Assembly: GCA_947361615.1 (NCBI GenBank)
Contig: CANAJP010000008.1
Coordinates: 1 to 43,213, forward strand
DNA: 43,213 nt
Direction: 5' to 3'
From: an uncultured Candidatus Melainabacteria bacterium
GTDB taxonomy: Bacteria > Cyanobacteriota > Vampirovibrionia > Gastranaerophilales > Gastranaerophilaceae
A program made the position numbers and the translations under genes. The notes beneath the pieces are model-generated. The model made no database searches, was not told the origin of the DNA, and saw only the letters and a list, made by a program, of their open reading frames with translations. Positions 33,188 through 37,119 of the stretch are shown piece by piece. How positions within the stretch are numbered: the stretch's first letter is position 1; each line of letters opens with the position of its first letter.

Positions 33188-33224
33188 TAAAAAAATAGGA
33201 CGATAATTATCTTATCGCCCTATT
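33187..33224 (-). terminator. Intrinsic terminator after the SLH/GH13 pair
   Basis: Reverse strand: AATAGGGCGATAA, 5-base loop, TTATCGTCCTATT (one mismatch), followed by T7. It ends the leftward transcript of 36102-33421 and touches the next promoter. Confidence 0.8.
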
Positions 33225-33420: not shown

Positions 33421-34554
33421 CTATTCTAGTATCCAGCCGTTTGTCAAATCAACTTTTATAGGGCTGAAAGTTTTGATGAATACAGTGCTGTCAGCCGGAA
33501 CTGAAAGTTTTTCACCTTTAAATACTGCTCTAACAAACTTCATAAACCAATTTCTGTCTTTAACAATATTTGAATAGCCTTTGAGTTTAACTGTCTGGTC
33601 GTTTACGGTTGTTATCAGAGCGTTATCAAGATATAAAACGCCGTTTTTAACAAACCATCTTCCTTTTACAACATCTAAAAGCTGGCCTTTAACATACGCA
33701 CCTTCTTGAATAAGAATATAATTTTCTTCCGTTACACAGTTTTGAGCAATTCTTGCAGTGTAAAGGTCGCCGATTTCTGATGTTTGAGAACTCATATAAC
33801 CTGTTACGCTTACAGGTAAGTAAGTTCCTGCAGGAATAGTTGCGATTACGCCGTCAACTTTAACGTTTGGAATAGCATAACCTTCGCCGGTTTTCTTTTT
33901 CATAGCGTAAGCAAGTTTTGCGTTAGGGTTAGCCTTTGCCTGTTCTTTCATATTATAAAGAATAACAGCACATTCTGCACGTGTTGCAGCTCTGTTTGCT
34001 TCAATTCTTGCTTCTTGCATTGTCGGTTGAACTACAATAAGTTCAAAGATTTCAGCTTTACCATAGTGAATAACAGCTTCTTCAGATAATGTATTCATAT
34101 CTACATATTTTTTAGCTAGAATTTCTCTTGCCTTAGCGTAACTGATATCTCTGTCAGAAAGTGCATTTGTCGCTACCATAATCGCTTCTGCACGTGATAC
34201 AGGATCGTCAGGTCTGAAAATATCATTTTTTGCAGAAATCAAATCAAAGAAAAGCGCTTTTTGAATAAAATCATAAGCCCAGAATTCTGAATCGATATCT
34301 GTAAAATTAACAGGTTGAGCGACCTGTGTATGTTCTTGGCCTAATGCTCTGATTGCCATTGCAGCGAATTCTGCTCTTGTAACAAGTTCATCAGGCTGGA
34401 ATGTTCCGTCAGGATAGCCAACAAGAACCCCCTGTTCTGAAAGTTCATTAATTTCTTTTGCAGCCCAGTAGTTGTTTTCAACATCAGGATATGCAAAAGC
34501 AGCACTAAACATCATTGATAATGTCAGAATTGCACCTAATAAGAATTTTTTCAT
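33421..34554 (-). CDS. SLH-domain envelope protein
   Basis: A 377-residue exported protein with a signal peptide (about 1-21). The first SLH domain (about 22-75) is textbook: FAYPDVENNYWAAKEI, then GYPDGTFQPDELVTRAEFA. The second (about 83-135) has FRPDDPVSRAEAI; a third is weaker (about 140-205). SLH domains bind pyruvylated or polyaminated wall polymers. The C-terminal half (about 225-377) is beta-rich with repeated GxY/GxxL turns and no recognised family. It lies 12 bases after the GH13-like gene and is probably co-transcribed with it. Gram-negative members of the cyanobacterial lineage use SLH proteins to tether the outer membrane to the wall; that role is inferred. Confidence 0.9.
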   Translation of the reverse strand: MKKFLLGAILTLSMMFSAAFAYPDVENNYWAAKEINELSEQGVLVGYPDGTFQPDELVTRAEFAAMAIRALGQEHTQVAQPVNFTDIDSEFWAYDFIQKALFFDLISAKNDIFRPDDPVSRAEAIMVATNALSDRDISYAKAREILAKKYVDMNTLSEEAVIHYGKAEIFELIVVQPTMQEARIEANRAATRAECAVILYNMKEQAKANPNAKLAYAMKKKTGEGYAIPNVKVDGVIATIPAGTYLPVSVTGYMSSQTSEIGDLYTARIAQNCVTEENYILIQEGAYVKGQLLDVVKGRWFVKNGVLYLDNALITTVNDQTVKLKGYSNIVKDRNWFMKFVRAVFKGEKLSVPADSTVFIKTFSPIKVDLTNGWILE

Positions 34555-34566
34555 TATATCTCCTCT

Positions 34567-36102
34567 CTATAACTCGTAGTCGCTAACGATTAAAATTTGT
34601 AATTCGCCCGGATTCAAGTTGAGTGTTACTTTTCCGTTATCAAGAACAGGAGGTTCTGTGATTTTTACAGGAACAGTGACTTTTTCCGAATCAAATTTAG
34701 AAAGTTTTACCTCTCCCCGTGCGTAAGAGGTAAAGTTAATATTGCCCATTACAACGATAGTTGTGCGGTTATAAGATATTGCATAGGCAAAAATATCCGG
34801 ATGTGTTGTTTTCAAAATATGGAATGTTCCAGCATTCAGATGTGCCATAAAGTATCTTTTGAACTGGTTAGACATCACATATTCACTGAATAAAATAGAA
34901 TTTCCTGCTCCGGGTTTTCTTGAATAGTTAAAAATATCAATTTTACCTCTGTTTACAAAATACTGCATATCATCGGTTTCAGAGTCTGTTGCTTTTTTAT
35001 TGCCCCAGCCGTAAACAAAATTATCACCGCTTTGATTACCGTCAACCACAAAAGAATTAATAGGTAACGTAGCGCTTAACCAGTATTGCATCACAGTATA
35101 AGGCATACCTTTTGAAAGCATAGGGCTTAAATCATCGTGAGTTGAAAATGCACCTAGTACAGCTTTTTTTTCAAGCCTTTTTTTCTGGGTAGATAGTAAT
35201 GCTGAAAGCTGTGATGAAAAATCTTTTGCATTTTTAGCTTCTTTTAATTCGTTAATATTTCCATAATATCCGTCAAAGCCGGCTTCCAGAAGTTTTTCGG
35301 TAGGTGTATTGGTAGTTGTGTTAAGAACATTAACTCCATTATCATTAGCCTGTGCAAGCCATAACATTTGTTGGTCAAATTTTCTGGAGTAAGCAATTAA
35401 ATCTCTCCAAAAACTTGCAGGTTTAGTAGATGGAACATTTGCTCTAATACCATCAACTTCGAGTTCTAACATAAGATCTACAAAATCTTTATAAAGAGCA
35501 AAAACCTCTTTGTTATAAGCCTCTTCTGTTCCAGCATTGAAAAGTCTAACGTCTGTCCAGATATCCGGAACGATTGCCTGTCCGTTTTTATCTTTAGCAA
35601 AAAGTTCCGGACGTTTCATATATAGGTCATAAGCACCGCATGCCGGTAAATCTACAATAACCCTTAGATTTCTGTTGTGCGCTTCTTTAATAAATTTTTT
35701 CGCCTGTTCCACATCGCTCATGACCGTTTCACTGCTAATAAGCTGCGGGTTGAGCTTTGAAAAATCAGAAATTGCATATAATGACCCTGCTGTTCCAAGA
35801 GCTTTGATTTTACCAATTTTGTTAATAGGCATCAAGAGTAAAGTATTAACCCCTGATGAACCTATAGCATCTAGTCTTGCGATACCGTTTAAAAAGTTAC
35901 CGGATTCATCGCCGTCAGCTTTTTTAATTAATCCGTCGCCATCAGTATCATTAGCGTTAAAAGTTCTCGGGTTAACCTCAAGAATAATTGCCGAATTATT
36001 TAAAAAACGCGTTCTCAAATCGTTTATCCAAACTCTGTCAGCAAAAGCAGAGTTCATAGAAAATACGAATAAACCAAGTAATAAAGCTATTGTCTTTTTC
36101 AT
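34567..36102 (-). CDS. Exported GH13-like protein lacking catalytic residues (pseudoenzyme)
   Basis: The 511-residue product begins MKKTIALLLGLFVFSMNSAFA, a signal peptide behind AAGGGAGAAG; an upstream in-frame ATG at 36135 has no ribosome site. The rest is a GH13 barrel: VIVDLPACGAYD near 148-159 replaces the region I D-x-V-x-N-H, DGIRANVPS has Asn at the nucleophile position (N222), LWLAQAN has Gln at the acid/base position (Q251), and STHDD keeps the region IV H322-D323. Both substituted residues are the isosteric amides of Asp and Glu, a pattern seen in non-catalytic glycan-binding amylase homologues. An EF-like NDTDGDGLIKKADGDESG near 51-68 may bind calcium. It is probably a glycan-binding or structural envelope protein with the SLH protein downstream. 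Confidence 0.85.
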   Translation of the reverse strand: MKKTIALLLGLFVFSMNSAFADRVWINDLRTRFLNNSAIILEVNPRTFNANDTDGDGLIKKADGDESGNFLNGIARLDAIGSSGVNTLLLMPINKIGKIKALGTAGSLYAISDFSKLNPQLISSETVMSDVEQAKKFIKEAHNRNLRVIVDLPACGAYDLYMKRPELFAKDKNGQAIVPDIWTDVRLFNAGTEEAYNKEVFALYKDFVDLMLELEVDGIRANVPSTKPASFWRDLIAYSRKFDQQMLWLAQANDNGVNVLNTTTNTPTEKLLEAGFDGYYGNINELKEAKNAKDFSSQLSALLSTQKKRLEKKAVLGAFSTHDDLSPMLSKGMPYTVMQYWLSATLPINSFVVDGNQSGDNFVYGWGNKKATDSETDDMQYFVNRGKIDIFNYSRKPGAGNSILFSEYVMSNQFKRYFMAHLNAGTFHILKTTHPDIFAYAISYNRTTIVVMGNINFTSYARGEVKLSKFDSEKVTVPVKITEPPVLDNGKVTLNLNPGELQILIVSDYEL

Positions 36103-36183: not shown

Positions 36184-37119
36184 ATGTTAAAATTTTCAGT
36201 AATAGTACCAATTTATAACATGCAGGAATATTTAGATTCCAGTCTGGCAAGTGTTATTAATCAAACATACAAGAACTTAGAAATTATTTGTGTGAACGAT
36301 GGCTCTATAGATAATTCACTTGCAATTCTTAAAGAATACAAGGCAAAAGATGAACGTATAAAGATTATAGACAAAGTTAACGGCGGCGTATCATCAGCCA
36401 GAAATGCCGGAATGAAAATTGCAACCGGTGATTACATAATGTTTCTTGATCCTGACGACGCATATGATGTTACGTTATGTGAAAAAGTCGCTGATAAAAT
36501 AGCTACTGAAAATTCAGATATAATCATGTGGGCGCATTCAAAGATTAAAGATGGAATTGAGCGTGAAAACAATATCAAACAGGTCAAAAGACTTACAATA
36601 GAAAAATATAAACATATTCTTAAACACCAGATAGGAGCACAGGCTTCTGTATGGGATAAGGCGTTTAAAAAAGAGTTGTTAAATGGTATATCATTTCCAA
36701 ACGGTATAAAATGCGCAGAAGATATAATTTTTTGCACACTTATATATCTAAAAAATCCATCGTATTCTTATATTCCTGAGCTCCTGTATTTTTATACTTT
36801 ATGCCGAGCCGGTGCTGTTACGAACCAAAATCCGGATTGCATATTAAATGATTTTGAGGCTTATAAGTATCTTTACGCAACAGAAGAATTTTCAAATCAG
36901 AATAAAAATATCCAGTTTAAAATTACAAACCATTTTCTAATAGGTTCAATTAATTATTTTAATAAATCAATTGAACCCACCCTAAAAAATAAGTATATTG
37001 ATGACATAAAATTATTTTTAAAATTTATTTATTCAGAATATAACCTTAGTGCTTTTTTCAAAATAAAAAATTTCAGGAAATTATTATTCCTTGTTATGCG
37101 TAATAATTTTCGCCCATAA
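36184..37119 (+). CDS. Family 2 glycosyltransferase
   Basis: A 311-residue GT-A enzyme that moves sugar from a nucleotide donor to a surface glycan. The N-terminal FSVIVPIYNMQEYLD binds the nucleotide, VNDGS at 38-42 follows, NGGVSSARNAG lies at 66-76, and the metal-binding acidic motif is LDPDD at 88-92. The catalytic region includes CAEDIIF near 180. The C-terminal 80 residues are helical and Lys-rich without a clear membrane helix. The start codon has no ribosome site; it fits the leaderless class. The last 36 bases overlap the convergent superoxide reductase gene. Sugar and acceptor are unknown. Confidence 0.9.
   Translation: MLKFSVIVPIYNMQEYLDSSLASVINQTYKNLEIICVNDGSIDNSLAILKEYKAKDERIKIIDKVNGGVSSARNAGMKIATGDYIMFLDPDDAYDVTLCEKVADKIATENSDIIMWAHSKIKDGIERENNIKQVKRLTIEKYKHILKHQIGAQASVWDKAFKKELLNGISFPNGIKCAEDIIFCTLIYLKNPSYSYIPELLYFYTLCRAGAVTNQNPDCILNDFEAYKYLYATEEFSNQNKNIQFKITNHFLIGSINYFNKSIEPTLKNKYIDDIKLFLKFIYSEYNLSAFFKIKNFRKLLFLVMRNNFRP

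Follow-up and report, generated by a model that had tools for sequence, protein, structure and literature searches.

Two adjacent genes on the reverse strand, encoding an exported protein with a GH13 fold and an SLH protein, lie in the window, the whole stretch of 43,213 nucleotides that was analysed (contig CANAJP010000008.1, an uncultured Candidatus Melainabacteria bacterium). Gastranaerophilus-type bacteria, to which this genome belongs, are diderm, non-photosynthetic relatives of Cyanobacteria from animal guts (PMC3787301). The features of the locus are as follows.

33194..33224 (-), hairpin resembling an intrinsic terminator after the SLH gene (pattern only)
33421..34554 (-), gene for the SLH protein, 377 aa, with a signal peptide, SLH repeats and a C-terminal VirB10-like beta domain (Pfam, AlphaFold2, Foldseek)
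34567..36102 (-), gene for the exported GH13-fold protein, a putative pseudoenzyme, 511 aa (ORF and translation, AlphaFold2, Foldseek)
35134..35139 (-), H322-D323, the region IV His and transition-state Asp, kept (alignment)
35350..35352 (-), Q251, codon CAG, acid/base position, Glu in intact orthologues (alignment to 4gkl/3dhu)
35437..35439 (-), N222, codon AAT, nucleophile position, Asp in intact orthologues (alignment to 4gkl/3dhu)
35443..35445 (-), R220, the region II Arg, kept (alignment)
35650..35652 (-), D151 of region I, in the context DLPACG (alignment)

The ORF translation placed the start codon of the GH13-fold gene at the ATG at 36102, and residues 1-21 of the product form a clear Sec-type signal peptide (N-terminus MKKTIALLLGLFVFSMNSAFA). 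The Pfam Alpha-amylase match was weak (E 0.0014, under the Pfam cut-off), and phmmer matched the protein to 4gkl (E 1.7e-15) and 3dhu (E 4.2e-14) across regions I-III. AlphaFold2, run with 67 homologues, produced a GH13 (beta/alpha)8 barrel followed by a C-domain (pLDDT 93, pTM 0.91), and the top PDB match of this model in Foldseek was 4gkl (E 1.3e-26, TM 0.80 by target), with GlgE enzymes next. The protein is thus a member of GH13 by fold and descent, and the exported GH13 barrel proposed in an earlier sequence-only reading was borne out by the signal peptide, the model and the 4gkl match. A role in defence was rejected, as PADLOC returned only a weak GlgB-like match.

We examined the catalytic positions by alignment to 4gkl and 3dhu and by inspection of the codons. 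Asn at the nucleophile position (N222), Gln at the acid/base position (Q251) and a retained region IV His-Asp (H322-D323) were all found where the sequence-only reading had put them. Of the residues of an active GH13 enzyme, namely the Asp nucleophile, the Glu acid/base and the transition-state-stabilizing Asp, only D323 is left. In the seven species examined from the window's genus, the residues at the nucleophile site are N, N, S, S, C, C and S, and the acid/base site is Gln in 7/7; codon 251 switches synonymously between CAG and CAA with Gln unchanged, whereas site 222 takes three residues. The earlier suggestion that both residues had undergone isosteric change therefore fails for N222, and of the two positions, which had been proposed for a check of fixation in orthologues, only Gln251 is fixed within the genus. 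R220, H322, D323, Y109, D151 and D184 are present in all seven species. The region I Asn-His of canonical GH13 is missing from the whole lineage, with a DLPSC-type stretch found in the intact members and in the copies from other orders as well, indicating that its absence is not part of the inactivation. This D-[LIV]-P-x-C-type stretch, present even in intact members, could be the signature of a subfamily, related to GH13_48, that has yet to be described.

A strong match to the protein was detected in all 155 of the sampled genomes of the family, most of which contained two copies, an exported one of ~511 aa and a long one of ~570-670 aa without a signal peptide; N-termini resembling signal peptides were found in 130 of 135 exported copies versus none of 46 long sequences. 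In the window genome the long paralogue (L002, contig C11, 1318-3198, minus strand) has no signal peptide and a long N-terminal extension, and it has relatives in other orders of the class. A record entitled Fusobacterium sp. (JAMPIJ010000001.1, L032) also carries a Gastranaerophilus locus and is probably a mislabelled bin.

Both catalytic residues were intact in 116 of the 135 exported copies, Asp and Glu were kept in 45/45 sequences of the long paralogue, and the 11 copies taken from other orders within the class were all intact at both positions, so the intact state is ancestral and the loss derived. Intact orthologues had been named in advance as an observation that would refute selection for sugar binding without cleavage. 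Such orthologues exist, but they belong to other genera only, which makes the loss derived and lineage-specific. Further losses were found in the genus-level groups g25 (5/5), g30, g15 (2/2), g11, g4 and g23 and in one of the three species of g27. Parsimony on the tree gave four changes to catalytic loss, an exact number that the long branches make uncertain. By these comparisons, the catalytic loss is derived, is fixed in the window's genus and has recurred on about four occasions within the family. Along the stem branch to the window's genus, which is long at 0.56 changes per site, functions besides catalysis may also have changed. In g25 and other lineages with independent losses (L025, L123-L126, L039, L026, L029), the pocket Arg and the region IV His also decay, unlike in the window's genus.

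To assess selection on the gene, we calculated pairwise dN/dS (NG86); dS approached or exceeded 1 in most pairs and was saturated in the deeper ones. For the copy without catalytic residues, the closest pairs in the genus gave 0.038 (L006/L007) and 0.058 (L001/L003); values for the intact paralogue were 0.028-0.08, and those for the inactivated copy and the SLH gene were comparable. A full-length ORF was present in 7/7 species, from separate assemblies. By these estimates, the GH13-fold gene is under purifying selection and not decaying, in agreement with the earlier proposal of selection rather than drift (closest-pair dN/dS about 0.04-0.06). Among the intact copies, 98 positions were conserved in >=93% of sequences; 75 of these were kept in all seven species, 15 were mixed and 8 were changed throughout the genus (D181, D222, A224, E251, W256, Y362, H384 and V503), four of which, D222, A224, E251 and W256, lie within or adjoin regions II and III. 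The pattern is that catalysis appears to have been lost, the nucleophile site has become permissive and the rest of the protein, Gln251 included, has stayed constrained. Pseudoglycosidases are a known kind of protein (PMC7828330), and the features that define them, catalytic residues lost since an intact ancestor and maintenance of the protein by selection, are both present here.

Downstream of the GH13-fold gene, the SLH gene begins after 12 nt. Its product matched Pfam SLH (1.9e-20), and its AlphaFold2 model (pLDDT 84.5) returned SLH matches in Foldseek, with the C-terminal half matching VirB10/ComB10 of the type IV secretion outer-membrane complex (E 1.5e-5, TM < 0.5). Pairing of the two genes had been noticed from the window sequence, and comparison extended it to a two-gene unit in 7/7 species of the genus, versus 0/128 of the other exported loci scanned (with about 0.5-6 kb of flanking sequence, less for a few loci near contig ends). 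An SLH orthologue is conserved throughout the order; in other genera it is sited elsewhere, not beside the GH13 gene. This genus-specific linkage fits recruitment to the envelope, short of proof. The SLH-VirB10-like protein deserves a study of its own.

The remaining neighbours vary. A family 2 glycosyltransferase gene (36184-37119, plus strand) sits between the GH13-fold gene and a desulfoferrodoxin gene in the window genome and its nearest relative only; four further species in the genus have desulfoferrodoxin directly upstream of the GH13-fold gene, so the glycosyltransferase gene looks like a variable insertion. Between the window genome and its nearest relative, the glycosyltransferase is 63% identical versus 91% for the GH13-fold protein. 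Next to 22 intact copies lies a ROK sugar kinase gene instead, consistent with an ancestor that released sugars. A ROK orthologue was found in 78 of 116 genomes with an intact copy versus 1 of 19 with an inactivated copy (Fisher p 2.6e-7); a phylogenetic sign test, with 3-4 independent contrasts on the tree, was not significant, and coupled loss of the kinase and catalysis is accordingly not claimed.

With both catalytic residues gone and the gene intact in every species examined from the genus, the protein probably binds or scaffolds instead of cutting, and it is most likely an envelope pseudoglycosidase kept for one of these two uses. The ancestor would have been an exported, presumably alpha-glucan-active GH13 enzyme carried by almost all members of the family. 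Comparison shows that the nucleophile and acid/base were lost at the origin of the window's genus, after which the protein was retained by purifying selection, and gene order shows that in the same lineage the gene became linked to that of the conserved SLH/VirB10-like envelope protein. The window protein would then carry out no hydrolysis; it may be periplasmic or surface-located and kept close to its SLH partner, and the remaining barrel, including Arg220, His322, Asp323, Tyr109 and Asp184, could hold an alpha-glucan, or some other oligosaccharide of envelope or dietary origin, uncut. It may thereby be the envelope glycan receptor suggested in the sequence-only reading. We give a probability of roughly 0.5 to this reading, an exported, SLH-linked pseudoglycosidase that has lost catalysis, is maintained by selection and holds an oligosaccharide without cleaving it. 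Rather doubtful, by our estimate, is the broader proposal that exported amylases of the family were repeatedly converted to non-catalytic envelope proteins, one of which joined the SLH/VirB10-like protein here in a wall-anchored, glycan-holding complex.

In the leading alternative the role is purely structural, and the GH13 fold would serve as a protein-protein or oligomerization module, for example in docking to the SLH/VirB10-like partner, with the sugar pocket incidental. The fold was kept through about four independent catalytic losses, and g25, g30, g4 and g23 also lack the Arg or His, suggesting that the function left in those lineages may not need a sugar pocket; the genus-specific SLH linkage and the precedents of rBAT/4F2hc (PMC8537225) and ISA2 (PMC12510319) point the same way. 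Retention of R220, H322, D323, Y109, D151 and D184 in all seven species argues for the pocket. We rejected retained R220, H322 and D323 as proof of sugar binding, however, because their retention is no stronger than average, about three quarters of the conserved sites being kept in all seven species. The whole lineage also lacks the region I His, which helps form the sugar-binding site in the closest relative of known structure, and this too counts against a sugar-holding role. A structural use is a substantial possibility, if one we would not call probable.

It is improbable that the protein has remained an enzyme that uses another residue as the nucleophile or catalyses a different reaction. 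Activity has been reported for BmaN1 (GH13_45), whose triad is aberrant (see the discussion in PMC11239784), and the transition-state Asp and His are retained here, but the nucleophile and acid/base are both gone, the nucleophile position drifts between N, S and C within one genus, and exported orthologues of sister genera have the normal residues. A survey of the nearest GH13 relatives excluded 17 sequences in which the GH13 catalytic machinery was incomplete, regarding them as likely products of sequencing error or of pseudogenization in progress (PMC11239784). For the present gene, drift to loss or assembly error is very improbable; both were rejected on account of the full-length ORFs in 7/7 species from separate assemblies, dN/dS of about 0.05 in the nearest pairs and the synonymous change at Q251. 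Where that survey saw likely errors or pseudogenes, we found seven species with strong purifying selection. About four losses in one gut-bacterial family provide a natural experiment on the use of the amylase fold once cutting ends, and they caution that GH13 matches in these genomes cannot all be counted as starch degradation.

We compared the protein with known systems. Its closest matches in sequence and fold are 4gkl, the GH13_48 maltogenic amylase AmyB of Thermotoga neapolitana, and 3dhu, an alpha-amylase of L. plantarum. GH13_48 is recognized by Asn-His at the end of region I (PMC11239784). The window protein has DLPACG at this point, and its intact orthologues likewise lack the mark; the Cys that precedes the nucleophile in 81% of GH13_48 and GH13_49 together is Ala221 in the window protein and mostly Ala or Val across the lineage. 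Membership of GH13_48 was rejected on these two features. The window protein shares with AmyB and 3dhu the barrel, a G-x-x-G-S-x-Y-A segment and a W-x-D-V motif, whose Asp aligns to Asp135 of AmyB; unlike them, it has lost the nucleophile and acid/base, lacks the region I Asn-His, has Ala instead of Cys before the nucleophile position and has THD instead of NHD in region IV.

Non-catalytic relatives of glycosidases offer further parallels. Plant ISA2, a non-catalytic GH13 homologue, functions together with a partner; it acts in plastid starch synthesis, and its partner ISA1 is active, whereas the window protein has no known exported counterpart of that kind. GH13 also includes the non-enzymatic ectodomains of rBAT/4F2hc (SLC3), which likewise combine an extracellular GH13 fold without demonstrated glycosidase activity with another role (PMC8537225). 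These are animal transporter subunits with a membrane anchor, whereas the window protein is bacterial, has a signal peptide and has intact orthologues in sister genera; no kinship past GH13 is claimed. The pseudoglycosidase lectin YKL-39 (GH18) shows a glycoside hydrolase relative turned sugar-binding after catalytic loss (PMC7828330); it belongs to another family and its binding has been demonstrated, whereas the window protein is a putative binder. Judging from the open-licence literature searched, a bacterial lineage in which a catalytically dead GH13 form is fixed, selected and recurrent appears to be new.
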